In this document: positions 9,268 through 58,155 of the stretch, piece after piece
Numbering within the stretch: position 1 is the first letter of the stretch
Layout: each line of letters begins with the position of its first letter
Assembly: GCF_963675165.1 (NCBI RefSeq)
Contig: NC_087377.1
Span: 16,493,518-16,557,517 of the forward strand
Direction: 5' to 3'
Source: Halichondria panicea
Lineage: Eukaryota; Porifera; Demospongiae; Suberitida; Halichondriidae
Length of the DNA stretch: 64,000 bases
Notes under the pieces: model-generated
What the model was told of the DNA's origin: nothing
What the model saw: the letters and a program-made list of their open reading frames with translations, nothing else
The model's database searches: none
Position numbers and translations under genes: made by a program

Positions 9268-11594
9268 CTAAACTTCATTAGTTGGGTCTTGTGTTCTTGG
9301 TGTCATTGCTAAACCAACTTCCTCGTATACTGGATCAACTGGGGCTGTTGGAAGTCCATTGGCTGAGCCAAAACACAAAATATATAAATGAATAATTATG
9401 ATACATGCTTAAGTTGGCATTACCTTTCCTTTTCTTTGTGATAGTGACTACTAAGATGACAACCAGTAGAATCAGTACCATCACTATAGCAACAAAACCT
9501 CCAGATAGAGCAGCAACATTCCATGCACCAGTTATTGCCTCACCTATGGGTCAATATGCAGCATGCAGACAGGCATTAAGAAAAATGAACTTACTGTTAC
9601 ACTCCAATAGAGCCGGGTCAGGATCCCATAAACCAGACTTGTTACAAGTAGCAGTCTCTGTACCCACCAGTGAAAAACCAGGATCACATTGGAAGGTAGT
9701 GACTGAGCTCTCGGTTTGGTCAGTGTTGGTGAGCAACACTCCATTAAGAGGAGGGGTGGGCAGGACACAGGTAACTATAGGTACAAGGAATGGTATGCAA
9801 ATATGAAAAAATGCCATGCATACAAGGGTTAATAGTAATGTTTTGCATAAGCTCACGTTCACAAAATGCTGCTTCTCCATCAAAAACACCAGTAGTGCTG
9901 CTACCATCTCCAGTGTAAGTCCTTGTGTTGCTACCAACCAGAACAAACCCAGTGTCACAACTGTGGTTAGCCATGGTGTTGAAAGCATAGTTGCCGTTTT
10001 CATCAGAAGTAGAACTACTGTATGTCACAAAGCCATTGGTAGGAGCAGTCAAGGGAGGACAGGTTATATCTATAGTGAAATAAAACAATCAGTATGATGA
10101 CCTACTATTTCAACACTCAACTTACGATTACAGACGACTTCATCTGTTCCAGACAATGAAGCCGCAAATCCATTCAAGCAGCTACAGTTGAACTGTTCCC
10201 TGTTACTCAAACAATTAGAATTTTGACCACAGTTGCATTGTATGGTTCAGGGAGATAATCTCATGCCTCCAGGGTAACCGTAAGAATTTCGTATGTCAAA
10301 TCCATACACAGAAACACCTAGAACAGCTGAGCTGTTTTGATGGCGGATAGAATGAGCTCCAGTAGACACAATCGTTTTACTTATGTGGCCACAAATCTCT
10401 CCACTCGAACAGACAACATTCCTCCAGCCAGTAACAATGGAATTGTCTAACACTATTTGTGCAGTACGAAAAAACTCAGAAGAAACATGCATCGTGACAT
10501 AGTTGAGTACGAAAAGAGGAATAGCTTCGACAACATAATTATTTGTAAACTGCTCAATTGGGGATTATCATTATGAATGGGTCTCCCAAGCCGCCATCAC
10601 TCTCCCTACCATACGCATACTGAGCGACCAGCACTAGAGAAGTGGATTCAATACTACAGAAACTGCTAATAGGGATTTCAAATTCTCTGAAACTCCCTCC
10701 ACTCTGCAACTGGAATTGACTGACTGATATGTTAGTGTTACAGTTCACAGCTACACTTGCTGCTCAAGCACTAAGAACATGAATACGTTCACCAGAAGAT
10801 CTACCCTCGAGAGATGCTACGAAGAATTTTGAGCCCCATGTCACAGTTGGAGGTACTTCTTCAACTAGATGGTCACACCACCTTATACCTTGAGGAACAT
10901 TAATACAATCAGGTCCGCTAAACACAGACAAAGGTTTGGAGCTTGTTATTCTTGTTCCTGTGAGATCATTATCACTTGCAATCTGATACGTTTCCATACT
11001 ATTGAGTGTTATGTTTAAAGAATCAAATTTAACGATAGTTTCATTTTCACAAGCCACCAACAAAATCACACTAGGATAGCCACTACTAATGGTGTCATAA
11101 GAGATTCCATAATATTCGTATTCATTCACTGCCATTATACAGTACATGGTAACGCTAAATATACATCTGCAGAACCTGAACGAAAAGATATCCCATACAA
11201 ATTGATGTTTCTGTCGGCTTCAACAAGGATACCCTTGTTCCTTTCATTAACAGAAAATACCTCAAAACTGGATGGAACGTTTACCCTAGTTGAAGATATA
11301 GAAACGCTCCCATTGAAATTAATTGGAGTGACCATGAAATTAACAGCACTTGACTCTGGGTTCGTGATAAACAAACACAGCTGATCTGCTGATAGACCTT
11401 CGTTTCTTGGGAAACCGACCACAAATTTTTTACCAGTACTTAATGAAGTCTCATCTAGGATTAATGGACAATTCGACTTAGGACATGCATAAAATAATTA
11501 GTCCTACCTGTAATTTGGGCATCACAAGATGTTGCAAAAATGATAATATGAGTATCGTCAATGCCAACGTAGAGCTAGCAAATCTGTAGCTCAT
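9268..11594 (-). pseudogene. Receptor locus A: disrupted IgGFc-binding/CCP receptor
   Basis: Exons in gene order: signal 11594-11510, main 11454-10126, CCP type 1 10069-9857, CCP type 2 about 9774-9595, transmembrane 9543-9424, tail 9362-9268. Compared with its closest relative C, the signal exon has a 2-nt excess, the main exon has a 2-nt excess near 11147, an in-frame TGA near 10750 and a further indel near 10560. The CCP cysteine in RTCTG is tyrosine. In the tail a 1-nt loss turns the conserved AYGQV tyrosine into a TAG stop. The tail has one YEEV motif. With this many lesions, locus A is very probably not producing a full receptor. Some exons remain clean enough to act as donors for gene conversion (inference). 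Confidence 0.8.
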
Positions 11595-12268
11595 TATTCT
11601 AAATTTGTTGACAACTGGTTGATCAACAGATTTAGTCTATATAATTATAATGAGTGAAGCAAACTCCACCATCACTATAGGTATAATGATTATAGCTACA
11701 GGCTATAGATCTCTTAATACTAAGCCCCCCCCCCTCTATAGATATCTACTATTGATGCTTGTCACAAATGGCGCAATCTGATTGGTCACTGAGAGGTCCC
11801 TAGACACATTACATCATCTGTAATTGATCCGATTGGCTGAAAACAGTAGATTACATGGAAGCATGAGGTGTTGTATAGTGAAGGTGTTGTATAGTGATGT
11901 TCCTGAGTAAGCCTGTAGCTTCCTATCAGCCAATGTTTGCACAAATTCATTTAGTTCGTTTTACTATGCCCACAACTCAGAAAAATCTGAACTGTTTACT
12001 TAACATAATTTATATCTGTGCAGAATTGTCTATTTTACTAATGTGGAGAGGATACAAGTTGCTTGCTTAGCTAATTGCTATATAATTATATAATTATATC
12101 CTCAAAAATAACATTAAAAGGAAACTGTAATGACATTACTTTTGAGTATGTCGTTCTTATCAACCTAGTTACTCGTGTATTCATATGCCTGATTTGACTG
12201 CAGCTTTATGTTTTGTTTTGCCGTCTGCATGGGATAAGATAATCAGTACGCAATTCTCTGTCACTTTT
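11595..12268. other. Spacer between loci A and B (duplicated at 21737-22359)
   Basis: Non-coding. It shares long stretches with 21737-22359, for example TGATGTTCCTGAGTAAGCCT, showing that A+B and C+D are two copies of one duplicated two-gene block. It contains 5' flank of A and 3' flank of B. Confidence 0.6.
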
Positions 12269-15013
12269 ATTTCCTCACTTGTCCATAAGCTTCATTAGAC
12301 TCCACTTGAATGTCTTGTGTTCTTGGTGTCATTGCTAGATCAACTTCCTCGTATACTGGACCAGCTGGGGCTATTGGAACTTCATTACCAGACAGTTGTC
12401 TATTTGTCATTGCTAGATAAACTTCCTCATATACTGGATCACCTGGGGGGGCTATTGGAACTTCATTGCCAACGATATAAATTGATATAGATCTACGTAC
12501 AGTCAAGGAATCCTTTAGTTGCCCTTATCTTTCTGATAGTGACTACTAAGAGAAATATGACGACCAGGACGATCGGTACAATCACTATAGCAACAAAACC
12601 TCCAGATAGAGCAGCAACATTCCATGCACCAGTTATTGACGCACCTATGGGTCAATAGGCAGCATACATGCAGGCATTGAGACATATAATACTTACACTC
12701 CAATAGAGCTGGGTCAGGATCCCATAAACCAGAGTTGTTACAAGTGGTAGTCTGTGTACCCATCAGTGAAAAACCAGGATCACATTGGAAGGTAATGACA
12801 GAGCTCTCGGTTTGGTCAGTGTTGGTGAGCAATGCTCCATTAAGAGGAGGGGTGGGCAGGACACAAATTACTATAGGTACAAGGAATGGTATGCAATTAT
12901 GAAAGCAATGCCATGCATACAAGGGTTACTAGTATTGTTTTACAAAAGCTCACGTTCACAAATTGCTGCTTCTCCATCAAAAACACCAGTAGTGCTGCTA
13001 CCATCTCCAGTGCAAGTCCTTGTGTTGTTACCAAACATAACAAACCCAGTGTCGCAACTGTGGTTAGCCATGGTGTTGAAAGCATAGTTGCTGCTTTCAT
13101 CAGAAGTAGAACTACTATATGTCACAAAGCCATTGGTAGGAGCAATCAAGGGAAGACAGGTTACAGCTATGGTGAAATGAATGAAACAAATCAGAAAAAG
13201 TAAACGACCTTCTTATGAATAAAGAAACCATGCACTTACTACATGAAAACATGGGTTAACAATAACGTTTGAATATAAGCTCACGTTTACAAAATGCTGC
13301 TTCTCCATTAAAAACACCAGTAGTGCTGCTGCCATCTCCAGTGCAAGTCCTTGTGTTGTTACCAACTAGAACAAACCCAGTGTCACAACTGTGGTTAGCC
13401 ATTGCATTGAAAGCATAGTTGCCGTTTTCATCAGAAGTAGAACTACTGTATGTCACAAAGCCATTGGTAGGAGCAGTCAAGGGAGGACAGGTTATAGCTG
13501 TAGTTAAATAAAACAACCCAGTATAATTATGATCCTCTGCACTGAACTTACCGATACAGACGACTTCATCTGTTTCAGACAATGAAGCAAAAAATCCATT
13601 CGAACAGCTACAATTGAACTGTTCCTTGTAACTCGAAAAATTAACATTTTGACCACAGTTGCATTGTATGGGAGATAATCTCATGCCTCCAGGGTAACCA
13701 TAAGAATTGGCAATGCCAAATCCATACACTGAAACACCTAGAACGGCTGAGCTGTTTTGATGGCGGATAGAATGCACTCCAGTAGACACATTCGTTCTAC
13801 TTATGTGGCCACAAATCTCTCCACTTGAACAGACAACATTCCTCCAGCCAGTAACAATGGAATTGTCTAATAATATTTGTGCAGTTTGAGAAAACTCAGA
13901 AGAAACATATACTGTGACATAGTTGGATACGAAAAGGGGAAACGCTTCAACATAATAATTATTTGTAAACTGCTCAATTGGAGAGATTATCATCATGAAT
14001 GGATCTCCCACGCCATCACTATCCCTACTATATGCATACTGTGCGACCAGTACTGGAGAAGTGGATTCAATGCTACAGAAACTGTTAATAGGGATTTCAA
14101 ATTCTCTAAAGCTCCCTCCACTCTGTAACTGGAATTGACTGACTGATACGTTAGTGTTGCAGTTCACAGCTACACTTGCTGCTCGGGCACTAAGAACACG
14201 AATACATTCACCAGAAGATCTACCCTCGAGAGATGCTACAAAGAATTTTGAGCCCCATGTGACAGTCGGAGGCACTTGTTCAACCAGGTGGTCACAGTAG
14301 TTTATACTTCGAGGAATATAAGCACAATCAGATCCACTAAACACAGACAAAGGTTTGGAACTTGTTATTCTTGTTCCTGTGAGATCATTATCACTTTCAA
14401 TCTGATACGTTTCCATACTATTGAGTGTTATTATTGAGGAATTGAATTCGACAACAGTTTCATTTTCACAAGCTACCAACAAAATCACACTAGGATGATA
14501 ACTTGTAATAATGTCATAGGAGATTCCATAATATTCGTATTCATCAACTGCCATTTTAGAACATGGTAACGCTAAATAAGCATCTGCAGTATATTGATGA
14601 AAAGACATCCCGTATAAATTGATGTCTCTGTCGGCTTCAACAAGGATCCCCTTGTTCCTTTCATTAACAGATAATATCTCAAAACTGGATGGAATATTTA
14701 CCCTAGTTGAAGAGTTAGAAACGTTCCCACTGATATTAATTAGAGAGACTGTAAAATTAACAGCACTTGACTCTGGGTTTGTGATAAACAAAAACAACTC
14801 GTCTGCTCTTTGACCACTATTTCTTGGGAAACCGATCACGAATTTCTTGCCAGCACTTGATAAGGTCTTATCTATAGGATGAATGGACAATGCAAGAATT
14901 ACATGCATTTTCAAGAAATCAGTCCTACCTGTAATTTGAGCATCAAAAGATGGAGCAAATGTGATTATGATTATTGTCAATGCCAAAGTAGATCTAGCAA
15001 TTCTGTAGCTCAT
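12269..15013 (-). CDS. Receptor locus B: open ectodomain and TM, tail exon probably cut off
   Basis: Exons: signal 15013-14929, main 14871-13552, two CCP type 1 exons (13497-13285, 13166-12954), CCP type 2 12870-12697, transmembrane from 12644. The 57-nt intron 1 has no in-frame stop, so the frame even runs through it. At the usual donor after the transmembrane exon, GTAAGG has become ATAAGG, and the normal acceptor before the tail is missing. Reading on gives TIRKIRATKG and a TAG at 12493; that version totals 718 aa in frame. The conserved tail (YEEVYLAM, YEEVDLAM, AYGQV, stop at 12269) is still open downstream but seems unreachable. The signal peptide, N-terminal IgGFc-binding-like domain and EGF-like cysteines are intact. 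Likely a surface receptor with little cytoplasmic tail, unless an unusual splice restores it. Confidence 0.72.
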
Positions 15014-16143: not shown

Positions 16144-16182
16144 CCCTTTAACCGTCACGGGCCACGATTGTGGCCCACAATA

Positions 16183-19328: not shown

Positions 19329-21736
19329 TTACAGACATTTCACTTCACTGTTAATTAAGAATCCGACGGTTAAAGGGTTAATTGTGAGTACATTAATAAA
19401 CAAAAGCAAGTCAGTTCTTAGGTCATGTATTTGATTTCTCCATATACCTGATTCGGGATCGATAGCAAAGTCATGTTTTGTTTTGCCGTCTGTATGAGGT
19501 AGGATAATCATTACACAATCTTTGTATTTCCTCACTTGTCCATAAGCTTTATTAGTTGGGTCTTGTGCTCTTGGTGTCATTGCTAAACCAACTTCCTCGT
19601 ATACTGGATCAACTGGGGCTGTTGGAAGTCCATTTGCTGAGCCAAAACACAAAATTAATACAAGATATAAATGATACATGCTTAAGTTGGCATTACTTTT
19701 TCTTTTCTTTGTGATAGTGACTACTAAGATGACAACCAGTAGAATCAGTACCATCACTATAGCAACAAAACCTCCAGATAGAGCAGCAACATTCCATGCA
19801 CCAGTTATTGTCACACCTATGTATAGGTCAATATGCAGCATGCAGACGTTAAGACATAAAAATGAATTTACACTCCAATAGAGCCGGGTCAGGATCCCAT
19901 AAACCAGAGTTGTTACAAGTGGCAGTCTCTGTACCCACCAGTGAAAAACCAGGATCACATTGGAAGGTAATGACTGAGCTCTCAGTTTGGTCAGTGTTGG
20001 TAAGCAACACTCCATTAAGTGGAGAGGAAGGTAGGACACAGGTAACTATAGGTACAAGGAATGGTATGCAATTATGTGAAAAAATGGCATGCATGCAACT
20101 CAGTGTCACAACTGTGGTTAGCCATGGTGTTGAAAGCATAGTTGCCGTTTTCATCAGAAGTAGAACTGTATGTCACAAAGCCATTGGTAGGAGCAGTCAA
20201 GGGAGGACAGGTTATAGCTATGGTGAAATGAAGCAATCAATATTATGACCTTCTATTTAAACACTCAACTTACCATTACAGACGACTTCATCAGTTCCAG
20301 ACAAGGAAGCAAAAAATCCATTCAAGCAGCTACAGTTGAAGTGTTCCATGTTATTTAAATAGATAGAATTTTGACCACAGATGCATTGTATGGGAGATAA
20401 TCTCATGCCTCCAGGGTAACCATAAGAATTTCGTATGTCAAATCCATACACTGAAACACCTATATAACGGCTGAGCTGTTTTGATGGCGGATAGAATGAG
20501 CTCCAGAAGACACAATCGTTCTACTTATGTGGCCACAAACTTCTCCATTTGAACAGATAACATTCATCCAGCCAGTAACAATGGAATTGTCTAACACTAT
20601 TTGTGCAGTACGAAAAAACTCAGAAGAAACATACACCGTGACATAGTTGAGTACGAAAAGAGGAATAGTTTCGACAACATAATTATTTGCAAACTGCTCA
20701 ATTGGAGGGATTATCATCATGAATGGGTCTCCCAAGCCGCCATCGCTCTCCCTACCAAATGCATACTGAGCGACCAGTACTGGGGAAGTGGATTCAATAC
20801 TACAGAAACTGTTAATAGGGATTTCAAATTCTCTGAAACTCCCTCCACTCTGCAACTGGAATTCACTGACTGATACAACAGTGTTGCAGTTCACAGCTAC
20901 ACTTGCTGCTCGGGCACTAAGAACACGAATACGTTCACCAGAAGATCTACCCTCGAGAGATGCTACGAGGAATTTTGAGCCCCATGTCACAGTCGGAGGT
21001 ACTTGTTCAACTAGATGGTCACACCACCTTATACCTTGAGGGACATAAGCACAATCAGATCCACTAAACACAGACAAAGGTTTGGAGCTTGTTATTCTTG
21101 TTCCTGTGAGATCTTGATCACTTTCAATCTGATACGTTTCCGTACTATTGAGTGTTATGTTTAAAGAATAAAATTTAACGATAGTTTAATTTTCACAAGC
21201 CACCAACAAAATCACACTAGGATAGACACTACTAATGGTGTCATAAGAGATTCCATAATATTCGTATTCATTCACTGCCATTACAGTACAGGGTAACGCT
21301 AAATATATATCTGCAGAACCTGAACGAAAAGATATCCCATACAAATTGATGTTTCCATCAGCTTCAACAAGGATCCCCTTGTTCCTTTCATCAACAGAAA
21401 AAACCTTAAAACTGGATGGAACGTTTACCCTAGTTGAAGATGTAGAAACGCTCCCACTGAAACTAATTGGAGTGACCATGAAATTAACAGCACTTGACTC
21501 TGGGTTCGTGATAAACAAACACAGCTGATCTGCTGATAGACCTTCATTTCTTGGGAAACCGCCCACAAATTTGTTACTAGCACTTGATGGGGTCTCATCT
21601 AGGATCAATGGACAATTCGACTTAGTACATGCATAAAATAATTAGTCCTACCTGTAATTTGGGCATCACAAGATGTTGCAAATGATAATATGAGTATCAT
21701 CAATGCCAACGTAGAGCTGGCAAATCTGTAGCTCAT
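19329..21736 (-). pseudogene. Receptor locus C: disrupted, long tail running into piggyBac
   Basis: Signal exon 21736-21652 and main exon 21598-20274. In the main exon the conserved ACENE has GAA changed to TAA (stop at about 21186), and a 2-nt excess lies near 20462. The CCP type 1 exon is cut: only about 20100-20216 remains, joined to CCP type 2 (about 20047-19873). Transmembrane exon about 19816-19693 encodes VMVLILLVVILVV; tail from about 19636. The tail has one YEEV, then NKAYGQVRKY without the usual stop, continuing through a polar stretch (DFAIDPESGIW) into the piggyBac end, where the stop lies. It is the closest relative of A. Probably non-functional as a whole, but the membrane and tail exons are clean. 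Confidence 0.78.
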
Positions 21737-22359: not shown

Positions 22360-25300
22360 TCAACTGCAGCTTAATAATGCTTTGCCATCTGAGGTAGGAT
22401 AATCAATAATTATACACAAATCTCTATCATTGTATTTCCTTACTTGTCCATAAGCTTCATTAGACTCCAATTGAATGTCTTGTGTTCTTGGTATCATTGC
22501 TATATCAACTTCCTCGTATACTGGATCAGCTGGAGCTATTGGAACTTCATTATCTGACATTTGTCTATTTTTCATTGCTAGATCAACTTCCTCGTATACT
22601 GGACCAGCTGGGGCTATTGGAACTTCATTGCCTGACAGTTGTCTATTTGCTGAGCCAAATCACAAATGGAAGACATAAATTGAATATACGTACAGTTAAG
22701 GAAATCCTCATGTTGCCCTTACTTTTTCTTATAGTGAGTACTAAGAGAAATATGACGACTAGTAAGATCAGTACCACCACTATAGCAACAAAACCTCCAG
22801 ATAAAGCAGCAATATACCATACACCAGTTATTGCCGCACCTATATATAAATCAATATAATTTATATGATGCAGCATGCAGGCATTAAGACATAAAAATGA
22901 ACTTACACTCCAATAGAGCAGGGTCAGGATCCCATAAACCAGAGTTGTTACAAGTGGCAGTCTCTGTACCCACCAGTGAAAAACCAGGATCACATTGGAA
23001 GGTAATGACTGAGCTCTCGGTTTGGTCAGTGTTTTGAGCGTTGGTAAGCAACACTCCATTAAGTGGAGGGGCAGGCAGGACACAGGTAACTATAGGTACA
23101 AGGAATGGTATGCAATTATGAAAGCAATGCCATGCATACAAGGGTTAATAGTAATGTTTTACATAAGCTCACGTTCACAAAATGGTGCTTCTCCATCAAA
23201 ACCACCAGTATTGCTGCTACCATCTCCAGTGCAAGTCCTTGTGTTTTTACCAATCAGAACAAACCCAGTGTCACAACTGTGGTTAGCCATGGCATTAAAA
23301 TCATAGTTGCCGTTTTCATCAGAAGTAGAACTACTGTATGTCACAAAGCCATTGATAAGAGCAGTCAAGGGAAGACAGGTTATAGCTATGGTGAAATGAA
23401 TCAAGAAAAGTAAACAACCTTCTATAAATAAAGAAACCATGCACTTACTACATGAAAATATGGGTTAACAGTAACGTTTGAATATAAGCTCACGTTCACA
23501 AAGTGCTGCTTCTCCATCAAAAACACCAGTAGTGCTGCTACTATCTCCAGTGCAAGTCCTTGTGTTGTTACCAACCAGAACAAACCCAGTGTCACAACTG
23601 TGGTTAGCCATGGCATTGAAAGTATAGTTGCCATTTTCATCAGAAGTAGAACTACTGTATGTCACAAAGCCATTGGTAGGAGCAGTCAAGGGAGGACAGG
23701 TTATAGCTATGGTGAAATGAATCAAGAAAAGTAAACGACCTTCTATGAATAAAGAAACCATGCACTTACTAGATCTACATGAAAATATGGGTTAACAGTA
23801 ACGTTTGAATATAAACTCACATTCACAAAATGGTGCTTCTCCATCAAAACCACCAGTATTGCTGCTACCATCTCCAGTGCAAGTCCTTGTGTTGTTACCA
23901 ACCAGAACAAACCCAGTGTCACAACTGTAGTTAGCCATGGCATTGAAAGCATAGTTGCCGTTTTCATCAGAAGTAGAACTACTGTATGTCATAAAGCCAT
24001 TGGTAGGAGCAGTCAAGGGAGGACAGGTTATAGCTATGGTGAAATGAATCAAGAAAAGTAAACGACCTTCTATATGAATTAAAAAAACCATGCACTTACT
24101 ACATGAAAATATGGGTTAACAGAATATAAGCTCACGTTCACAAAATGCTGCTTCTCCATCAAAAACACCAGTAGTGCTGCTACCATCTCCAGTGCAAGTC
24201 CTTGTGTTGTTACCAACGAGAACAAACCCAGTGTCACAACTGTGGTTAGCCATGGTATTGAAAGAATAGTTGCCGTTTTTATCAGAAATATTATTGTATG
24301 TCACAAAGCCATTGATAGGAGCAGTCAAGGGAGGGCAGGTTATAGCTATGGTAAAATGAAGTAATTATCTTAAGTTCTCTTTGAACACTCAACTTACCGC
24401 TACAGATGAGTTCATCTATTGTAGACAATGAAGCAACAAATCCATTCAAGCAGCTACAGTTGAACTGTCCCATCTTATTCAAGCAAATAGAATTTTGACC
24501 ACAGTTGCATTGTATGGGAGATAATCTTATGCCTCCAGGGTAACCATAAGAATTGGTAACGCCGAATCCATACACTGAAACACCTATAACGGCTGAGCTG
24601 TTTTGATGGCGGATAAAATGAGCTCCAGAAGACACATTTATTCTACTTATGTGACCACAAATCTCTCCACTTGAACAGACAACATTCCTCCAGCCAGTAA
24701 CAATGGAATTGTCTAATACTATTTGTGCAGTTTGAAAAAACTCAGAAGAAACATACACCGTGACATAGTTAGATACGAAAATAGGAAACGCTTCAACAAA
24801 ATAGTTATTTGTAAACTGCTCAATTGGAGGGATTATCATCATGAATGGGTCTCCCACGCCGAAGCCATCACTCACCTTACCATACGCATACTGTGCGACC
24901 AGTACTGGAGAAGTGGATTCAATGCTACAGAAACTGTTAATAGGGATTTCAAATTCTCTGAAACTCCCTCCACTCTGCAACTGGAATTCACTGACTGATA
25001 CGATAGTGTTGCAGTTCACAGCTACACTTGCTGCTCGGGCACTAAGAACACGAATACGTTCACCAGAAGATCTACCCTCGAGAGATGCCACGAGAAATTT
25101 TGAGCCCCATGTGACAGTCGGAGGCACTTGTTCAACCAGGTGGTCACAGTAGCGTATACCTTGAGGAACATTAGCACAATCAGATCCACTGAACACAGAC
25201 AAAGGTTTGGAGCTAGTTATTCTTGTTCCTGTGAGATCATTATCACTTTCAATCTGATACGTTTCCATACTATTTATTGAGATTGTTGAGGAATTGAATT

Positions 25301-25867
25301 TTACAACAGTTTCATTTTCACAAGCCACCAACAAAATCACACTAGGATAATAGGTAGTACTACTAATGGTGTCGTAGGAGATTCCATAATATTCGTATTC
25401 ATCAACTGCCATTTTAGAACATGGTAACGCTAAATAAGCATCTGCAGTATATTGATGAAAAGACATCCCATACAAATTGATGTTTCCGTCAGCTTCAACA
25501 AGGATCCCCTTGTTCCTTTCATTAACAGAAAATACCTCAAAACTGGGTGGAACGTTTACCCTAGTTGAAGATGTAGAAACGTTCCCACTGATATTAATTA
25601 GAGAGACTGTAAAATTAACAGCACTTGACTCTGGATTTGTGATAAACAAAAACAACTCGTCTGCTCTTTGACCACTATTTCTTGGGAACCCGACCACGAA
25701 TTTCTTCCCAGCACTTGATAAGGTCTCATCTAGGATCAATGGACAATAAGAATTACATGCATTTTCAAGAAATCAGTCCTACCTGTAATTTGAGCATCAC
25801 AAGATGTTGCAAATGTGATTATGATTATTGTCAATGCCAAAGTAGATCTAGCAATTCTGTAGCTCAT
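22360..25867 (-). CDS. Receptor locus D: intact IgGFc-binding/EGF/5xCCP/TM/tyrosine-tail receptor
   Basis: Nine exons: signal 25867-25783, main 25729-24398, four CCP type 1 exons (24345-24136, 24033-23821, 23706-23494, 23385-23173), CCP type 2 23089-22907, TM 22839-22723, tail 22649-22360. The sum is 2856 nt, 951 aa, with no stop and every junction phase 1. Order: hydrophobic signal ending CDAQIT; about 400 residues resembling the IgGFc-binding protein N-terminal domain (KKFVVGFPRN, VPPTVTWGSKF, SYGYPGG); an EGF-like six-cysteine end (CNCGQNSIC ... CSCLNG); five Sushi modules; a valine/leucine-rich helix; basic stop-transfer. The tail has two YEEV motifs and AYGQV and extends past the usual VRK stop by about 25 residues. 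A cell-surface adhesion or recognition receptor is inferred. Confidence 0.85.
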
Positions 25868-29306: not shown

Positions 29307-29338
<32 letters not shown>

Positions 29339-35607: not shown

Positions 35608-36000
35608 CAAAAATGAAAAGACATCCCATACAAATTGATGTCTCTGTTGGCTTCAACAAGGATCCCCTTGTTCCTTTCATTAACAGAAGAAACCTCAAAA
35701 CTAGATGGAACGTTTGCCCTAGTTGAAGAGTTAGAAACATTCCCACTGGTATTAACTATGAAATTAACAGCACTTGACTCTGGATTTGTGATAAACAATA
35801 ACAACTCTGGATTGATTCCTGGATGTTGAACAGCATTTCTTGGGAAACCGACCACAAATGTTTTGCCAGCACTTGATAAAATCTCATCTAGGATTAATGG
35901 ACAATTCATGCTAAATTCTACAAGAATTCAGTCTTATATACCTGTAACTTGGGCATCACAAGATGGAGCAAATGTGATTATGATTATTGTCAATGCCAAA
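35608..36000 (-). pseudogene. Receptor fragment F-prime (start of main exon and half a signal exon)
   Basis: 35608-35894 encodes the first roughly 95 residues of the main domain (VVGFPRNAVQHPGINPEL variant, to NLYGMSFHF). Half of the signal exon follows up to 36000, where it is abruptly fused to the end of b561 exon 2. The 35608 edge is the same as the edge of the 39520 fragment, so both come from one deletion. Confidence 0.75.
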
Positions 36001-39519: not shown

Positions 39520-39940
39520 AAATGAAAAGACATCCCATACAAATTGATGTCTCTGTTGGCTTCAACAAGGATCCCCTTGTTCCTTTCAATAACAAAAGAA
39601 ACCTTAAAACTGGATGGAACGTTTGCCCTAGTTGAAGAGTTAGAAACATTCCCACTGATATTAACTGTGAAATTAACAGCACTTGACTCTGGGTTTGTGA
39701 TAAACAATAACAACTCTGGATTGATTCCTGGATGTTGAACAGCATTTCTTGGGAAACCGACCACGAATTTTTTGCCAGCACTTGATAAAATCCCATCTAG
39801 GATTAATGGACAATTCAAGGATTACATGCTAAATTCTACAAAAATTCAGTCCTACCTGTAACTTGGGCATCACAAGATGGAGCAAATGTGATTATGATTA
39901 TTGTCAATGCCAAAGTAGATCTAGCAATTCTGTAGCTCAT
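39520..39940 (-). pseudogene. Receptor fragment G-prime (signal exon and start of main exon)
   Basis: Signal exon 39940-39856 (85 nt, open) and main exon from 39796 to about 39520, ending at NLYGMSFHF as in F-prime. It is a twin of F-prime, more complete at the 5' end. If transcribed, it would give a short secreted fragment running into flank sequence. Confidence 0.75.
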
Positions 39941-42550: not shown

Positions 42551-45100
42551 TTATTTCCTCACTTGTCCATAAGCTTCATTAGACTCCACTTGAATGTCTT
42601 GTGTACTTGGTGTCATTGCTAGATCAACTTCCTCGTATACTGGACCAGCTGGAACTCCATTGCCTGACAGTTGTCTATCTGTCATTGCTAGGTACACTTC
42701 CTTGTATACTGGACCAGCTGGAACTCCATTGCCTGACAGTTGTCTATCTGTCATTGCTAGGTACACTTCCTCGTATACTGGAACAGCTGGGGCTATTGGA
42801 ACTTCATTGCCTGACAGTTGTCTAGTTTCTGAGGGCCAAGTCACAAATGCAAGATGAATGTGATAATGCAGTCGCAAGTAAATCCTTTAGTTTGCACTTA
42901 CTTTTTCTTTTGTTTGTGATAGTGACTAAGAGAAATATGACGACCAGTAAGATCAGTACCATCGCTATAGCAACAACACCTCCAGATAGAGCAGCAGTAT
43001 TCCATGCACCAGTTATTGCCTCACCTATGGGTCAATATACAGCATACAGACAGGCATTGAGACATAAAAATGAACTTACTGTTACACTCCAATAGAGCCG
43101 GGTCAGGATCCCATAAACCAGAGTTGTTACAAGTGGCAGTCTCTGTACCCACCAGTGAAAAACCAGGATCACATTGGAAGGTAATGACTGAGCTCTCGGT
43201 TTGGTTAGTGTTGGTGAGCAACACTCCATTAAGTGGAGGGGCAGGCAGGACACAGGTAACTATATACGTACAAGGAATAGTGGATGCGCATGTCAAAATA
43301 AAGTAATCACTATAATAATTATACTACATTAAAGTATGGGGGTTAACAGTTGCGAAAGCTCACGTTCACAAATTGCTGCTTCTCCATCAAAAATACCAGT
43401 AGTGCTGCTACCATCTCCAGTGCAAGTCCTTGTGTTGTTACCAACCAGAACAAACCCAGTGTCACAACTGTGGTTAGCCATGGTGTTGAAAGAATAGTTA
43501 CCGTTTTCATCAGAAGTATTATTGTATGTCACAAAGCCATTGGTAGGAGCAGTCAAGGGAGGACAGGTTATAGCTATGGTGAAATGAAGCAATCAGTATG
43601 ATGACCTACTATTTAAAAACTCAACTTACCATTACAGATGAGTTCATCAGTTCCAGATAATGAAGCAAAAAATCCATTCAAACAGCTACAGTTGAAGTGT
43701 TCCGTGTTATTCAAACAAACAGAATTTTTACCACAGATGCATTGTATGGGAGATAATCTCATGCCTCCAGGGTAACCGTAAGAATTGTCTGAGCTGAAAC
43801 CATACACTGAAACACCTAGAACTGCTGAGCTGTTTTGATGGCGGATGGAATGAGCTCCAGGAGACACATTCATTCTACTTATGTGGCCACAAATCTCTCC
43901 ATTTGAACAGACAACGTTCCTCCAGCCAGTAACAACAGATTCATCTATTAACATTTGTGCAGTTTGAAAAAACTCAGAAGAAACATACACAGTGACATAG
44001 TTGGATACGAAAAAAGTAAACGCTGCGACAAAATAATTATTTGTAAACTGCTCAATTGGAGGGATTATCATCATGAATGTGCCTCCCACGCCTTCACTCC
44101 TAATACTATAGGCATACTGTGCAACCAGTACTGGAGAAGTGGATTCAATGCTACAGAAACTGTTAATAGGGATTTCAAATTCTCTGAAACTCCCTCCACC
44201 CTGCAACTGGAATTGACCGACTGATACGTTAGTGTTACAGTTCACAGCTACATTTGCTGCTCGGGCACTAAGAACACGAATACGTTCACCAGTAGATCTA
44301 CCCTCGAGAGATCCCACGAGAAATGTTGAGCCCCATGTCACAGTCGGAGGCACTTGTTCAACCAGGTAGTCACAGTAGAGTGTACCTTGAGGAACACTAG
44401 CGCAATCAGATCCACTAAATACAGACAAAGGTTTGGAGCTAGTTATTCTTGTTCCTGTAAGATCATTATCACTTTCAATCTGATATGTTTCCATACTATT
44501 TAGTGTTATTGTTGAGGAATCGAATTTGACAACAGTTTCATTTTCACAAGCCACTAGCAAAATTACACTAGGAGTGATACTACTAATGGTGTCATAGGAG
44601 ATTCCATAATATTCGTATTCATCAACTGCCATTTTAGAACATGGTAACGCTAAATAAGCGTCTGTAGTAGCTGAATGAAAAGACATCCCGTACAAATTTA
44701 TGCTTCCGTCGGTTTCAACAAGGATCCCCTTGTTCCTTTCATTAACAGAAGAAACCTCAAAATTGGATGGAACATTTACTCTAGTTGAAGAGTTAGAAAC
44801 ATTCCCACTGATATTAATTGGAGTTACTGTGAAATTAACAGCACTTGACTCTGGGTTTGTGATAAACAAAATCAATTTGGGATTGATTCCTGGATATTGA
44901 ACAACATTTCTTGGGAAACTGACCATGAATTTCTTGCCAGCACTTGATAAAATATTATCTAGGATATGGACAATTCAAGGATTACATGCTAAATTCTACA
45001 AGATTTCAGTCCTACCTGTAGTGTGGGCATCATAAGATGTTGCAAATGTGATTATGATTATTGTCAATGACAAAGTAGATCTAGCAATTCTGTAGCTCAT
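42551..45100 (-). CDS. Receptor locus H: intact receptor with two CCPs and three-unit tyrosine tail
   Basis: Signal 45100-45016, main 44958-43630, CCP type 1 43573-43364, CCP type 2 43259-43080, TM 43024-42902, tail 42828-42551: 2205 nt, 734 aa, open and in phase throughout. The main domain uses the NVVQYPGINPKL loop variant. CCP type 2 uses a donor six bases further on than most copies (GAGTGTAACA before GTAAGT), as in A and I. The tail has three tandem units: YEEVYLAM, YKEVYLAM and YEEVDLAM, then AYGQV and VRK with the TAA inside an AATAAA signal. YLAM matches the YxxM form bound by PI3K p85 SH2 domains; YEEV is close to the Src-family SH2 optimum YEEI (established knowledge). Signalling through such partners is inference. 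Confidence 0.85.
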
Positions 45101-48461: not shown

Positions 48462-50893
48462 TTATTTCCTCACTTGTCCATAAGCTTCATTAGACTCCAC
48501 TTGAATGTCTTGTGTTCTTGGTGTCATTGCTAGATCAACTTCCTCGTATACTGGACCAGCTGGAACTCCATTGCCTGACAGTTGTCTATCTGTCATTGCT
48601 AGGTACACTTCCTCGTATACTGGAACAGCTGGGGCTATTGGAACTTCATTGCCTGACAGTTGTCTAGTTTCTGAGGGCCAAATCACAAATGCAAGATGAA
48701 TTAATGTGATAATGCAGTCACAAGTAAATCCTTTAGTTGCACTTACTTTTTCTTTTCTTTGTGATAGTGACTAAGAGAAATATGACGACTAGTAAGATCA
48801 GTACCATCACTATAGCAACAACACTTCCAGATAGAGCAGCAGCATTCCATGCACCAGTTATTGCCTCACCTATGGGTCAATATACAGCATACAGACAGGC
48901 ATTGAGACATAAAAATGAACTTACTGTCACACTCCAATAGAGCAGGGTCAGGATCCCATAAACCAGAGTTGTTACAAGTGGCAGTCTGTATACCCAGCAA
49001 TGAAAAACCAGGATCACATTGGAAGGTAATGACTGAGCTCTCGGTTTGGTTAGTGTTGGTGAGCAACACTCCATTAAGTGGAGGGGCAGGCAGGACACAG
49101 GTAACTATATACGTACAAGGAATAGTGGATGCGCATGTCAAAATAAAGTAATCACTATAATATAGTATGGGTTAACAGTTGCGAAAGCTCACGTTCACAC
49201 TTTGCTGCTTCTCCATCAAAAATACCAGTATTGCTGCTACCATCTCCAGTGCAAGTCCTTGTGTTGTTACCAACCAGAACAAACCCAGTGTCACAACTGT
49301 GGTTAGCCATGGTGTTGAAAGAATAGTTGCCGTTTTCATCAGAAGTATTATTGTATGTCACAAAACCATTGGTAGGAGCAGTCAAGGGAGGACAGGTTAT
49401 AGCTATGGTGAAGAAATGAAGCAATCAGTATTTAAATACTCAACTTACTATTACAGACGACTTCATCAGTTCCAGAAAATGAAACATTCAAGCAGCTACA
49501 ATTGAACTGTTCCCTGTTATTCAAATTTTGACCATAGTTACATTGAATGGGAAATAATCTCATGCCTCCAGGGTAACCATAAGAATTTCGTTTGTCAAAT
49601 CCGTACACTGACACACCTAGAACGGCTGACCTGTTTTGATGGTGGATAGAATGTGCTCCAGTAGACACATTCGTTCTACTTATGTGGCCACAAATCTCTC
49701 CACTTGAAGAGACAACATTCCTCCAGCCAGTAACAATGGAATTGTCTAACACTATTTGTGCAGTTTGAAAACACTCAGAAGAAACATACACCGTGACATA
49801 GTTGGATACGAAATGAGGAAACGCTTCAACAAAGTAGTTATTTGTAAACTGCTCAATTGGAGGGATTATCATCATGAATGGATCTCCCACGTCATCACTA
49901 CCCCTACCATATGCATACTGAGTGACCAGTACTGGAGAAGTGGATTCAATGCTACAGGAACTGTTAATAGGGACTTCAAATTCTCTGAAGCTCCCTCCAC
50001 TCTGTAACTGGAATTTACTGACTGATACGTTAGTGTTGCAGTTCACAGTATGCTGCTCAGGCACTAAGAACACGAATACGTTCACCAGAAGATCTACCCT
50101 CGAGAGATGCTACGAGGAATTTTAAGCCCTATGTCACAGTCGGAGGCACTTGTTCAACCAGGTGGTCACAGTGGACGCATATATTTTGTGGAACATTAGC
50201 ACACTCAGCTCCACTAAACACAGACAAAGGTTTGGAGCTTGTTATTCTTGTTCCTGTGAGATCATTATCACTTGCAATCTGATACGTTTCCATACTATTT
50301 AGTGTTATTGTTGAGGAATTGAATTTGACAAGTGTTCCATTTTCACACGCCACCAACAAAATCACGCTATGGTAATAAATAACATCATAGGAGATTCCAT
50401 AATATTCGTATTCATCCACTGCCATTACAGTACAGGGTAATGCTAAATAAGCATCTGCAGTACCTGAATTAAAAGACATTCCAAACAAATTGATGTTTCC
50501 ATCAGCTTCAACAAGGATTCCCTTGTTTCTTTCATTGACAAATGATACCTCAAAACTGGATGGAATGTTTGCCCTAGTTGAAGAGTTAGAAACATTCCCA
50601 CTGATATTAATTGGAGTGACTGTAAAATTAACAGCACTTGACTCTGGGTTTGTGATAAACAAAAACAACTCGATTCCTATATTATATAGGTAATTTCTTC
50701 CAAAAAAACCAACCACGAAGTTTTTGCCAGCACTTGACGAGGTCTCATCTAAGATCAATGGACATTTTAAGGTATACAAGGATATAGACTACAAGAGTTC
50801 AGTCCTACCTGTAATTTGGGCATCACAAGATGAAGCAAATGTGATTATGATTATTGTCAATGCCAAAGTAGATCTAGCAATTCTGTAGCTCAT
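48462..50893 (-). pseudogene. Receptor locus I: disrupted main exon, good CCP, TM and tail exons
   Basis: Signal 50893-50809, main 50748-49449, CCP type 1 49402-49193, CCP type 2 49104-48925, TM 48869-48747, tail 48670-48462. In the main exon the conserved VTWGSKF has TGG changed to TAG (near 50131), the SARAAS arginine is TGA, and about 5 nt are lost just after it. The EGF-like part is also shortened near 49485. The remaining exons are open: two tail units (YEEVYLAM, YEEVDLAM), AYGQV and VRK stop. It shares the long CCP type 2 donor with H. A main-domain loop variant (NYLYNIGIEL) is unique to this locus. Confidence 0.75.
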
Positions 50894-51654
50894 TATTTTT
50901 AGCAACTAGTTGACTATCAAATAGATAAGAGTACAAAATGAACTGAAATGAACAGCATGAACTGCTTTAATAAACGAGGAACTGCATTAATTTTTCCAAA
51001 TCTGTGTCATTATCAGTTCTGTTGTTGAGGTTTAAAAGTGTGGTTGAGTAAACTGTGGTGTGCATGGTTTGTAAGCACTGACCTGTGTCAGCAACTGTTA
51101 ATACGACTTTAATAAACTGTAACTTGTATACAATAATTGTGCTAGCTATTAAATGTGCATGCCACCATAATTATTTATTCCACGGAGTGTACAGTGCACA
51201 GTACGCAATACACGTATTGCTCTGTGCTTTGTAAGCACTGATCTGGTTGTGTTTGCAACTATTATGACTTTATAATAGATGTATAGTTTAATTTGCTATT
51301 GTAATAATTAATTAGCATGCAACGTACTTTATGCAATATTATTGAAAACACACACAGTAAGCACTGTCAATCCTATGTACAATTATTACATTATTTCCGT
51401 GTATATCCTTTCTCCATAATTATAAACTATAATTAATAATTATTATACAGCCTCTACCATGCAGCTATACTATAGCCATTGACCCTCACAATACACGAGC
51501 GTACTTCAACCTCAGAGTGAACTACCTTAACGCACAAGACTTGTAGAGCTGGAACCTGCATGGCTACAATCTTGGAGTGTAATGCAACCGTCAATATGAT
51601 AGGCTGGCAGAGGCTGAGAGTGTGCTGGTTAGACTGAGGAACTGAGGAAGTAAA
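50894..51654. other. 5' flank of locus I
   Basis: Non-coding. About 51030-51540 has the shared upstream region seen at B, F and G (GGTTTGTAAGCACTGACCTG and AACCTC-GAGTGA blocks), partly duplicated within itself. Confidence 0.45.
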
Positions 51655-52776
51655 GAAGTGGATTCAATGCTACAGAAACTGTTATTAATAGGGATTTTAA
51701 ATTCTCTGAAACTCCCTCCACTCTGTAACTGAAATTCATTGATTCACAGCTACACTTGCTGCTCTGGCACGAATACGTTCACCAGAAGATCTATATCCTC
51801 GAGATATGCTACGAGGAATTTTAAGCCCCATGTCACAGTCGGAGGCACTTGTTCAACTAGGTGATCACAGTAGCGTATACCTTGAGGAATCTCAGCACAA
51901 TCAGATCCACTAAATGCAGACAAAGGTTTGGAGCTAGTTATTCTTGTTCTTGTGAGATCAGTATCACTTTCAATCTGATACGTTTCTATACTATTGAGTG
52001 TTACTGTTGAGGAATCAAATTTGACAATATTTTCATTTTCACATACAGGAAGAGATATATAGTACGTATAGGCAATGTAACCTGAGTCACAAATTGCATT
52101 GCCAATTAGATTCCATTTGAGTAGCCTATAAGAGGAATATGTTATAAGCTTAGGTATTTTCTGCCTTTTGAACTTTGAGACCAAACGAAACGCAGTGCAA
52201 AAATAATTATGGCCCAATTATTATAAGACCAATAATTATAATAATGTCATCACTGACAATGGTGAGTGGCTCTATTAATGAGTCCTGGTAGTACTTAATA
52301 GACAAGTTGGTTACTATAATAGCTATGTTTTCTGTTGTTGCTTTTAAGTTTACTGGATTACATTCACATAACTATAATAAAGCAATAAATTATATATACT
52401 TGTCGTTGACTCTGGGTTTGTCATAAACAAAAACAACTCTCGACTGTTCCTGTTCGGCGATTCATTATATCATTTCTTGGGAAACCGACCACGAATTTTT
52501 TGCCAGCACTTGATGAGGAGGTTAAAATTTCATCTGGGATTAATGAGAGATTTTACATGTAATCATTATAGACTAATTCAGTCCTACCTGCAATTTGGGC
52601 ATCACAAGATGAAGAAAATGTGATTATGATTATTGTCAATGCTCTGATAGGCCACCTTCCAAAGGTCTGGTTTTAGTTGTGTCTTGATGGGGCTACGCCC
52701 TGTGCCCTTGTTATAGACAGCCCCATGCAATCCAGCAGCAATGCCAAAGTAGATCTATAGCAATTCTGGAGCTCAT
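51655..52776 (-). pseudogene. Receptor locus J: broken 5' remains
   Basis: Pieces of one receptor gene in order: signal exon 52776 to about 52586 split by an insert at 52642-52738, start of main exon about 52540-52405, then a gap of unrelated AT-rich DNA, then the central main exon about 52050-51655 (SSKPLSAFSGSDCAEIPQG recognisable). No EGF, CCP, membrane or tail exons follow. Several indels. The spread of pieces shows repeated deletion and insertion. Confidence 0.7.
52642..52738. repeat. 97-bp insertion in a receptor signal exon, CAATG target duplication
   Basis: Extra sequence (CTCTGATAGG ... TCCAGCAG) interrupts the signal exon of J between two copies of CAATG (52637-52641 and 52739-52743). 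All other signal exons are uninterrupted here. No inverted ends are seen; it may be a SINE-like or filler insertion. Confidence 0.6.
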
Positions 52777-53824: not shown

Positions 53825-56394
53825 TTATTTCCTCACTTGTCCATAAGCTTCATTAGACTCCACTTGAATGTCTTGTGTTCTTGGTGTCATTGCTAGATCA
53901 ACTTCCTCGTATACTGGACCAGCTGGGACTATTGGAACTCCATTGCCTGACAGTTGTCTATTTGTCATTGCTAGATATGCTTCTTCGTATACTGGACCAG
54001 CTGGGGCTATTGGAACTTCATTGTCTGACATTTGTCTAGTTTCTGAGCCAAATCACAAATGCAAGATATAATTAATTGAATGTGATAATGCAGTCGCAAG
54101 TAAATCCTTTAGTTGCACTTACTTTTTCTTTTCTTTGTGATAGTGACTACTAGGAAAAATATGACGACTAGCAAGATCACTACCATCACTATAGCAACAA
54201 CACATCCAGATAGAGTAGCAACATTCCATGCTCCAGTTATTTCCACACCTATAATTATAAGTTATATGCAACATTCAAGCAGGCATTAATAATGAACTTA
54301 AACTCTAATAGAGCCGGGTCAGGATCCCCTAAACCAGAGTTGTTACAAGTGGCAGTCTCTGCACCCACCAGTGAAAAACCAGGATCACATTGGAAGGTAA
54401 TGACCGAACTCTCAGTTTGGTAAGTATTGCTCCATTAGGTGGAGGGGCAGGCAGGACACAGGTAATTAGGTACAGGGAATGAGGGACACAGGTAATTAGG
54501 TACAGAGAATGGAGGACACAGGTAATTAGGTACAGGGAATGGAGGACACAGGTAATTAGGTATACATGCAGGCCGAGGGAATGGTTGAATAAAGAAACTA
54601 CTTGATTGCTACATTAAGGCAACAATAATGTTTTGCATAAGCTCACGTTCACAAATTGCTGTTTCTCCATCAAAAACACCAGTAGTGCTGCTACCATCTC
54701 CAGTGCAAGTCTTTGTGTTGTTATCAACCAGAACAAACCCAGTGTCACAAGTGTGGTTAGCCATTGCATTGAGAGCATAGTTGCCGTTTTCATCAGAAGT
54801 AGAACTGTATGTCACGAAACCATTGGTAGGAGCAGTCAAGGGAGGACAGGTTATAGCTATGGTGAAATGCAGCAATCAGTATGATGACCTTCTATTTAAA
54901 AACTCAACTTACCATTACAGATGAGTTTATCAGTTGCAGATAATGAAGCAAAAAATCCATTCAAACAGCTACAGTTGAAGTGTTCCGTGTTATTCAAACA
55001 AACAGAATTTTGACCACAGATGCATTGTATGGGAGATAATGTCATGCCTCCAGGATAACCGTAAGAATTGTCTGAGCTGAAACCATACACTGAAACACCT
55101 AGAACTGCTGAGCTGTTTTGATGGCGGATAGAATGAGCTCCAGGAGACACATTCATTCTACTTATGTGGCCACAAATCTCTCCATTTGAACAGACAACGT
55201 TCCTCCAGCCAGTAACAACAGAGTTATCTATTAACATTTGTGCAGTTTGAAAAAACTCAGAAGAAACATACACTGTGACATAGTTGGATACGAAAAGAGT
55301 GAACGCTGCAACAAAATAATTATTTGTAAACTGCTCAATTGGAGGGATTATCATCATGAATGTGCCTCCCACGCCTTCACTCCTATTACTATAGGCATAC
55401 TGTGCGACCAGTACTGGAGAAGTGGATTCAATGCTACAGAAACTGTTAATAGGTATTTCAAATTCTTTGAAACTCCCTCCACTCTGTAACTGGAATTGAC
55501 CGACTGATACGTTAGTGTTACAGTTCACAGCTACATTTGCTGCTCGGGCACTAAGAACACGAATACGTTCACCAGTAGATCTACCCTCGAGAGATGCCAC
55601 GAGAAATGTTGAGCCCCATGTCACAGTCGGAGGCACTTGTTCAACCAGGTAGTCACAGTAGAGTGTACCTTGAGGAACACTAGCGCAATCAGATCCACTA
55701 AACACAGACAAAGGTTTGGAGCTAGTTATTCTTGTTCCTGTAAGATCATTATCACTTTCAATCTGATATGTTTCCATACTATTTAGTATTATTGTTGAGG
55801 AGTTGAATTTGACAACAGTTTCATTTTCACAAGCCACCAACAAAATCACACTAGGATAGCGCCTAACCATACTAATAAGGATGTCATAGGAGATTCCATA
55901 ATATTCGTATACATCAACTGCCATTTTAAAACACGGTAACGCTAAGTAAGCATCTGTAGTAGCTGAATGAAAAGACATCCCATACAAATTGATGTCTCTG
56001 TCGGCTTCAACAAGGATCCCCTTGTTCCTTTCATTAACAGAAGAAATCTCAAAACTGGATGGAACGTTTGCCCTAGTTGAAGAGTTAGAAACTTTCCCAC
56101 TGATATTAATTGGAGAAACTGTGAAATTAACAGCACTTGACTCTGGATTTGTGATAAACAAAAATAACTCTGGATTGATTCCTGGATGTTGAACAGCATT
56201 TCTTGAAAAACCGACCACAAATGTTTTGCCAGCACTTGATAAAACCCCATCTAGGATTAATGGACAATTCAAGGATTACATGCTAAATTCTACAAAAACT
56301 AAGTCCTACCTGTAACTTGGGCATCACAAGATGGAGCAAATGTGATTATGATTATTGTCAATGCCAAACTAGATCTAGCAATTCTGTAGCTCAT
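53825..56394 (-). CDS. Receptor locus K: open main exon; type 2 CCP exon damaged, skipping keeps frame
   Basis: Signal 56394-56310, main 56250-54913, CCP type 1 54856-54647, TM 54248-54123, tail 54042-53825. The type 2 CCP exon (about 54470-54308) has a net loss that shifts frame, its donor is TTAAGT instead of GTAAGT, and its acceptor region is filled by a 30-bp tandem repeat. Because all these exons start and end in phase 1, splicing CCP1 directly to TM gives 1977 nt, 658 aa, fully open. The main domain carries an NAVQHPGINPEL loop and an extended ISMVRRYPS loop. The tail has YEEAYLAM, then YEEVDLAM, AYGQV and VRK stop. The first unit has lost the YEEV valine but kept YLAM. Probably a one-CCP receptor. 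Confidence 0.72.
54454..54565. repeat. 30-bp tandem repeat, four units, at a CCP acceptor
   Basis: GGACACAGGTAATTAGGTAC begins at 54454, 54484, 54514 and 54544 with one or two differences per unit. It is the former intron-exon edge of the type 2 CCP exon of K, amplified in place. Confidence 0.88.
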
Positions 56395-56675
56395 TATTTT
56401 TAGCAACTGGCTCAACAGATTTAGTCTATTCAGTGAGGCAAGCTTTAACAATACCTCTATATCTCTGAAATATTAAGCCCCCCCCCCCTCTCATAAATCT
56501 AAAATAAAACAGTACCCCCCCATTGACATTTCTTTGAGCACCTCAATTAATAACAAAAACAGGTTAGTTTTTATCAACCTAGGTACTCGTGTATTTGATT
56601 TCTTCATATTCCTGATTTGACTGCAACTTAATGTTTCGCTTTGCCATCTGTGGTATAAGATAATCATTACACAAA

Positions 56676-58155
56676 TTAATTCCTCACTTGTCCATAAGCT
56701 TCATTAGACTCCAATCGAATGTCTTGTGTTCTTGCGGGTATCATTGCTAGACCAACTTCCTCGTATACTGGACCAGCTGGGGCTATTGGAACTCCATCGC
56801 CTGACAGTTGTCTATTTGTTGCTAGACCAACTTCTTCGTATACTGGACCAGCTGGGGCTATTGGAACTTCATTGCCTGACAGTTGTCTATTTGCTGAGCC
56901 AAATCACAAATGTAAGATATAAAATGAATATACATGCGGTTAGCTAGCAAATCTTTAATTTACCTTTACTTTTTCTTTTTTGTGTGATAGTAAATACTAA
57001 GAGGACCAGGACGATCAGTATCACCACTAGAGCAACAACACCTCCAGATAAAGCAGTAAAACTCCATGCACCAGTTATTGTCACACCTATATAGGTCATA
57101 TACAGCGCATACATGCATTAAGACATAAATGAACTTACACTCCAATAGAGCCGGGTCAGGATCCCATAAACCAGAGTTGTTACAAGTGGCAGTCTCTGTA
57201 CCTACCAGTGAAAAACCAGGATCACATTGGAAGGTAATGACTGAGCTCTCGGTTTGGTCAGTATTCTGAGAGTTGGTGAGCAATGTTCCATTAAGTGGAG
57301 GAGCGGGCAGGACACAGATAGCTATAGGAACAAGGAATGGTGAAAGCACACGAATAAAGAAATCACTTACTGCATTAATACATGGGCTAACATTCAACCT
57401 TCTATTATTTTAAACACTCAACTGACCGGTACAGACAATTTCATCTGTTCCAGACAAAGAAGCCGCAAATCCATTCAAGCAACTACAGTTGAACTGTCCC
57501 ATGTAATTCAAACAAATAGAATTTTGACCACAGTTGCATTGTATGGGAGATAATCTCATGCCTCCAGGGTAACCGTAAGAATTTTTTGTGTCGAATCCAT
57601 ACACTGAAACACCTAGAACAGCTGAGTTGTTTTGATGGCGAATAGAATGAGCTCCAGCAGACACATTCGTTCTACTTATGTGGCCACAAATCTCTCCACT
57701 TGAACAGACAACATTTCTCCAGCCAGTAACTAAAGAATCATCCATTAATAAATTATTTGTGTAGTTTGAGAAAACTCAGAAGTAACATACACTGTGACAT
57801 AGTTGTATGTGAAATTAGTAAAACTCTCGACAAAATAATTATTTGTAAACTGCTCAATTGAAGGGATTATCATCATGAATGGATCTCCCATGCCATCACT
57901 ATATCTACCATACGCATACTGTGCGACCAGTACCGGAGAAGTGGATTCAATGCTACAGAAACTGTTATTAATGATTTCAAATTCTCTGAAACTTCCTCTA
58001 CTCTGTAACTGGAATTGACCGACTGATACGTTAGTGTTACAGTTCACAGCTACACTTGCTGCTCGGGCACTAAGAACACGAATACGTTCACCAGAAGATC
58101 TACCCTCGAGAGATGCCACAAGGAATTTTGTTCCCCATGTCACAGTCGGAGGCAT
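56676..58155 (-). pseudogene. Receptor locus L: 5'-truncated
   Basis: The main exon starts abruptly at 58155 (VPPTVTWGTKF part) with no signal exon upstream; it runs to 57427 with a frame break near 57745 (extra bases in the QTAQ-LID segment). CCP type 2 57321-57139, TM 57086-56970, tail 56893-56676 with two YEEV-type units, AYGQV and a late TAA. No type 1 CCP. This is the right-hand end of the array, where unrelated DNA begins at a clean break. Confidence 0.75.

Follow-up and report, generated by a model that had tools for sequence, protein, structure and literature searches.

We analysed a 64,000-nucleotide (nt) stretch of the genome of the sponge Halichondria panicea (contig NC_087377.1, positions 16,493,518 to 16,557,517; hereafter the window, whose own numbering is used throughout), which holds a tandem array of related receptor-like genes. 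The array lies on the minus strand from 58,159 to 9,252 (about 49 kb). Searches with blastn and local alignment, using exon queries taken from the locus at 45.1-42.55 kb (locus H), found ten loci, A to J, each with a signal exon (E1), a transmembrane (TM) exon (E5) and a tail exon (E6), together with a 5'-truncated locus, K, and four fragments. An initial annotation, made from the letters of the sequence, had proposed the same counts, the same exon order and a single strand, and all were recovered. Blocks of 1.5-2.5 kb recur across the array at 84-93% DNA identity, and the array is therefore not a product of chance.

The exon structure is well illustrated by locus H, where E1 (85 nt), E2 (1329 nt), the complement control protein (CCP) exons E3 (210 nt) and E4 (180 nt), and E5 (123 nt) are followed by E6, which runs to the stop at 42551; the introns measure, in order, 57, 56, 104, 55 and 73 nt. 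All introns in the spliced models of B, D, G, H and J are in phase 1, and GT and AG are found at every junction used. Because of this common phase, the frame is kept when E3, E4 or E5 is duplicated or skipped, and the intact genes carry one (G), two (H) or five (D) CCP modules. The three complete loci, two altered but open loci and many broken loci of the initial annotation were all confirmed, with the correction that G lacks E3 and has its E4 and TM exon fused. D, G and H are intact, splice sites and tails included. The altered pair consists of J, in which the damaged second CCP exon (E4) can be skipped in frame, and B, which is open through the TM exon; since GT is missing at its E5 donor, there is no clear splice site to connect it with the YEEV tail downstream. 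Loci A, C, E, F and I are broken by frameshifts, stops or deletions (Table 1). A tandem repeat of 30 bp (3.7 copies, 54453-54562) lies at the damaged 5' border of E4 in locus J. Upstream, the ten E1 copies have in common a near-invariant C(C/T)AGTTG close to the ATG, which may be a promoter or translation element; the rest of the upstream alignment is noisy. An AATAAA or ATTAAA within 600 bases downstream was found at two of 11 loci (C and G) and for neither D nor H, a scan that neither proves nor excludes expression.

The main exon, E2, belongs to the IgGFc_binding family of Pfam (PF17517). All five open copies match it, with E values of 4.6e-53 (B), 7.1e-54 (D), 8.8e-51 (G), 2.4e-49 (H) and 1.3e-49 (J) and scores of 168.6-183.5 bits against a gathering cut-off of 25.6, and the IgGFc-binding homology suggested at the outset is thus borne out. 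The same applies to the CCP modules, as the Sushi family (PF00084) was above cut-off in all eight exons scanned (five of D, two of H, one of G). The EGF-like stretch proposed for the end of E2 is weaker: in D and G it matched EGF_CA and EGF_3 under their gathering scores, and the D exon gave nine matches in the PDB, all within this stretch (the best to Notch, E 0.00027, with others to EGF stretches of NELL1); no EGF family was matched by B, H or J in Pfam at E 0.01. In total, Pfam returned only IgGFc_binding, EGF and Sushi for five E2 open reading frames (ORFs; searched to E 0.01) and eight CCP exons (searched to E 0.1), with neither an Ig domain family nor the vWD-C8-TIL repeats of FCGBP-type mucins; beyond these scanned parts the spliced models have a signal exon of 28 residues, a TM exon and a tail. 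NCBIfam matched none of three proteins, and a PDB search with the A3 profile gave no match at E 1.

The best 19-residue hydropathy of the TM segment is 3.45-3.85 in D, G and H, in keeping with the proposed receptor layout of signal peptide, strongly hydrophobic membrane segment and tyrosine-motif tail. The eleven tail exons hold 20 PVY-type units, with one to three tyrosine units per tail. Within the PVYEEV unit the P, V, Y and second E are present in 20 of 20, and the first E and the next V in 19 of 20 each. An A-Y-[GA]-Q-V site is found in ten tails and has been lost in locus A. The tail had been described as YEEV/YLAM/AYGQV; PVY-type units do occur in all 11 tails and AY[GA]QV in nearly all, and YxxM after YEEV is limited to five (B, E, H, where it occurs twice, I and J). 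We take YEEV to resemble the Src-SH2 preference pYEEI, and YxxM to resemble PI3K sites. The looser core motif Y-x-x-I/L/V is present in 11 of 11 tail exons, and the full chain of sushi ectodomain, type I TM segment and core tyrosine motif is found only in D, G, H, and J with E4 skipped.

Several observations indicate that the copies have exchanged sequence. The E2 exons of D and G are 99-100% identical over the first three 150-column windows (450 columns) and at most 95% identical in every later one, and H and I are 87.9% identical in E2 and 95.9-99.5% identical in E3-E6. Mosaic runs were assessed by column permutation (2000 permutations) over 491 polymorphic gap-free columns of A, B, C, D, E, G, H, I and J, leaving out the incomplete F and K as well as E3, whose copy number varies; where a run extends over an exon border, it depends on how the exons were concatenated. 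The global p was 0.0005, the floor of 2000 permutations, for four of the 36 pairs (D-G, with a run spanning 89 polymorphic sites, C-E, I-J and C-H), 0.0035 for H-I, 0.013 for E-I, and above 0.05 for the remaining 30 (B-G 0.094). Intact copies stand next to damaged ones and fragments, with mosaic exchange between them, and the birth-and-death pattern read from the array by the initial annotation is thus upheld. Copy number also changes within genes: locus D has a 327-bp CCP repeat, and a unit of 69-78 bp is repeated in the tails of D, F, H, J and K. Furthermore, the 3' sides of E, H and I have DNA in common (26272-28641, 40413-42721 and 46407-48632; 89-97% identity), which points to segmental duplication of gene plus spacer. 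It is unlikely that haplotype or assembly duplication caused the array, given that the open E2 exons of B, D, G and J are just 82-92% identical to that of H in protein and that even the closest stretch, the one between D and G, ends after 450 columns.

The open E2 exons have diverged under constraint, with a ratio of nonsynonymous to synonymous substitution rates (dN/dS) of 0.40-0.52 in ten of ten pairs. The pooled ratio of the corresponding proportions of differences (pN/pS) is 0.47 when A, C, E, F, I and K, the six that are broken or truncated, are each compared with the closest open copy, and 0.45 for three open pairs. The idea that purifying selection marks out only the intact copies was therefore rejected; most of the divergence predates breakage, or sequence was exchanged later. 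Net in-frame insertions or deletions (indels) among the copies occur near E2 nt 60-78, 375-385, 853-870 and 1159-1172. Over the stretches around these four sites, taken as residues 17-29, 122-131, 281-293 and 383-394 of the E2 of H, pN is 0.181, against 0.065 elsewhere, and 26 of 5000 circular shifts gave a value as high. Positions with at least three residue types number 5 among the 196 that the structure model predicts to lie in strands, and 22 among the 200 others.

Relatives of the N-terminal domain are found in bacteria. At E 0.001, PF17517 was present in 46 of 198 Bacteroidota genomes, the seed genome included (45 over the cut-off), with at least ten matches in several of them, and in none of 14 control genomes. 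Two Bacteroidota loci were matched in a genome scan, and the sole plasmid record matched was a Bernardetia plasmid (23.4% identity, 90% coverage, E 3e-9). The likeness to the sponge proteins is one of domain homology, at 23-27% identity; three of the bacterial ORFs, judged by eye, are large, secreted-looking proteins with the domain N-terminal, and the receptor layout was not recognised in them. Two protein scans found no relatives in viral contigs; a single phage match of 46 residues (E 0.4) and two PDB matches of a bacterial PF17517 protein (E 0.34 and 0.84) were judged to be chance.

The ectodomains of the Alr proteins of Hydractinia are Ig-like. Alr proteins are likewise candidate receptors with tyrosine motifs, for allorecognition in an early-branching animal, and differ in that both ITAM and ITIM have been reported in them (PMC12065747). 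Clusters of the present sort are already a known kind. The closest likeness is to the fester family and fester co-receptors (FcoR) of the fuhc locus of Botryllus, clustered type I TM proteins with sushi ectodomains and Y-x-x-I/L/V tails that evolve by birth and death (PMC12065747); Botryllus, however, has Ig domains, paired genes and in some cases an ITIM or hemITAM, and none of these domains and motifs was found in the sponge array. Tandem arrays of SRCR genes in Amphimedon also combine a conserved exon structure with varying domain number, but their domains are SRCR and the term 'IgGFc' is absent from the main text (PMC10855680). Human FCGBP, a mucus component active in mucosal defence, shares PF17517 in an N-terminal position (PMC9354016), but is mucin-like with vWD-C8-TIL repeats, whereas the sponge family has EGF-like, CCP and TM segments and a tyrosine tail. 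PMC9601881 employs a Syk-family kinase from the sponge Amphimedon. In the literature searched, which covers few subscription papers and includes PMC10236652 and PMC6208332, no receptor family of this layout came up. The only paper found with 'sponge', 'IgGFc-binding' and 'Amphimedon' together (PMC8242945, on Halichondria) merely names IgGFc-binding among other domains in a figure legend, and its figure could show such a protein.

Gene order, exon structure, the three intact genes, purifying selection on the N-terminal domain, the copy mosaics and the varying numbers of CCP and tyrosine units are read from the DNA itself. Together they suggest, with about even confidence on our part, a birth-and-death tandem family of type I TM recognition receptors that signal via phosphotyrosine. 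The domain and the tail, along with the dynamics of the copies and the parallel to the FcoR clusters of Botryllus, lead us to infer both this signalling and a role in recognising nonself or microbes, symbionts included. In such a receptor the IgGFc_binding domain would be the ligand-binding head, its specificity determined by the indel-bearing loops, and the CCP modules would form a stalk of variable length. Clustering driven by ligand would lead Src-family-type kinases to phosphorylate PVYEEV and YGQV, which could then dock SH2 proteins, with the YLAM sites possibly serving PI3K. The copies may act as a reservoir, with unequal exchange and gene conversion putting together new receptor variants from it.

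A number of results weigh against recognition receptors of this kind. Of the interpretation given by the initial annotation, the layout, the IgGFc homology and birth-and-death are supported, and the immune or allorecognition function is putative. By the usual definitions of the patterns, a canonical immunoreceptor tyrosine-based inhibitory (ITIM), activation (ITAM) or switch (ITSM) motif, or a hemITAM, occurs in none of the 11 tails, and a canonical ITIM/ITAM/ITSM reading was dropped. The equal pN/pS of broken and open copies means that this ratio is no proof of present function in D, G and H, and that constraint does not single them out. Around the indel sites pS is raised as well (0.256 against 0.145 elsewhere), and the pN/pS of the loops, 0.71 (95% interval 0.42-1.21) against 0.45 (0.34-0.59) for the rest, is not above 1; with the dN/dS range of the open pairs, this leaves positive selection in the loops unsupported. 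Variable loops are, besides, commonplace in many proteins. The E2 model, all-beta except for short helices, is weak (14 aligned sequences, mean predicted local distance difference test score 59.9, predicted template-modelling score 0.68), and none of its 917 Foldseek matches in the PDB reached E 0.001. Finally, the presence of PF17517 in bacterial proteins of surface appearance means that it could be a plain adhesion domain.

This last point leads to the chief rival, that the genes encode cell- or matrix-adhesion receptors with no role in self/nonself discrimination, the IgGFc domain binding glycoproteins of mucus or matrix while the tail, through its tyrosines, links adhesion to the cytoskeleton. 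We hold it to be possible but somewhat unlikely. The role of FCGBP as a mucus component (PMC9354016), the N-terminal position of the domain in the large secreted-looking bacterial ORFs, and the overall purifying selection are all consistent with adhesion; broken copies, mosaic exchange and variation in exon number would, on general knowledge, be unusual for housekeeping adhesion genes. Allorecognition receptors proper, with polymorphic copies deciding between fusion and rejection of individuals, would fit the likeness in layout and genomics to the Botryllus FF/FcoR clusters (PMC12065747). A grafting study of Amphimedon reported no significant enrichment of genes for aggregation-factor-mediated adhesion (PMC5450542), which leaves room for other receptors, but 'IgGFc', 'sushi' and 'receptor' are all absent from the main text of that paper, and we regard this narrower role as decidedly unlikely. 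It is very doubtful that the array is simply dying, an old amplification now mostly of pseudogenes in which D, G and H are open through recency alone. The ten full loci do include five broken (A, C, E, F and I) and two altered ones (B and J), with K truncated and four fragments between; pooled pN/pS does not differ with breakage, and AATAAA or ATTAAA follows within 600 bases at two of the 11 loci only. Against this, three loci show no lesion along 620-951 codons and keep their splice sites and tails, and PVY.E is conserved across loci.

If the recognition-receptor reading is true, a receptor design with variable head, variable stalk and tyrosine tail has been made from a domain better known in a mucus protein and in bacterial proteins. 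The compact cluster, with its unusual ectodomain, its tyrosine tails and its three named intact genes, offers directly testable receptor candidates and bears on the receptors by which early-branching animals tell self from nonself and recognise microbes. A bolder and unlikely extension would make it a sponge self/nonself locus, or part of one, with a mucus-defence domain as its basis in place of Ig or SRCR domains, where exchange of head loops would set specificity, the number of CCP exons reach, and the number of tail tyrosine units signal strength.

Table 1. Loci, fragments and repeats of the array (window positions; aa, amino acids)
Feature	Position	Strand	Remarks
Locus A, broken	9252..11594	-	E1 2-nt insertion; E2 frameshifts and one in-frame stop; tail end shifted
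Locus B	12268..15013	-	two E3 exons; 718 aa open through TM, stop at 12493; E5 donor without GT
Locus C, broken	19525..21736	-	E2 in-frame stop and frameshift; E3 alignable over just 121 of 210 nt
Locus D, intact	22360..25867	-	951 aa; four E3-type CCP exons and E4
Locus D exons	E1 25867-25783; E2 25729-24398; E3a-d 24345-24136, 24033-23821, 23706-23494, 23385-23173	-	
Locus D exons, 3' part	E4 23089-22907; E5 22839-22723; E6 22649-22360	-	
327-bp tandem repeat	23142..24360		3.8 copies; contains locus D CCP exons
Locus E, broken	28472..31144	-	E2 two -1 frameshifts; E3 +2; E2 96.0% identical to H
Fragment	32346..32515	-	E2, 170 nt
Locus F, broken	33475..35198	-	E2 with large deletions; neither E3 nor E4 found
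Fragment	35612..36000	-	partial E1 and E2 5' part
Locus G, intact	37029..39124	-	620 aa; E1 39124-39040; E2 38980-37655; fused E4/E5 37555-37244; E6 37168-37029; without E3
Fragment	39521..39940	-	E1 and E2 5' part
Locus H, intact	42551..45100	-	734 aa; E1 45100-45016; E2 44958-43630; E3 (CCP) 43573-43364
Locus H exons, 3' part	E4 (CCP) 43259-43080; E5 (TM) 43024-42902; E6 (tail) 42828-42551	-	
69-bp tandem repeat	42611..42790		2.6 copies; encodes locus H tail tyrosine unit; 75-78-bp versions in D, F, J, K
Locus I, broken	48463..50893	-	E2 net -5 frameshift; E3-E6 95.9-99.5% identical to H
Fragment	51654..52776	-	E1 in two parts and E2 pieces
Locus J	53825..56394	-	E4 10-bp deletion, aligned acceptor without AG; 658 aa open when E4 skipped
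Locus K, 5'-truncated	56677..58159	-	E2 3' half (frameshifted), E4, E5, E6; E3 not found

Other genes flank the array within the window. Adjoining it at 58970-61549, on the minus strand, is a gene resembling adhesion G-protein-coupled receptors, with 7tm_2 in three ORFs (E 8.1e-10, 7.9e-16 and 1.8e-4) and a GPS motif slightly under its cut-off; this gene, the CCP modules and the multi-exon genes are in line with an animal genome. On the plus strand, a protein kinase domain lies at 3715-5024 (Pkinase, E 3.8e-38), preceded by an ORF that looks death-like by eye and has no such match in Pfam, and the ORF of a Kelch-repeat protein lies at 6245-7168 (PF24681, E 5.7e-36). Two short elements resembling miniature inverted-repeat transposable elements, at 7917-8104 and 47365-47597, have inverted ends TATAGCGGG(T/A)AATTTTC, a pattern with no match in viral contigs. 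An inverted repeat of 177 bp, its arms 98.9% identical, is formed by 18085-18261 and 18471-18647.

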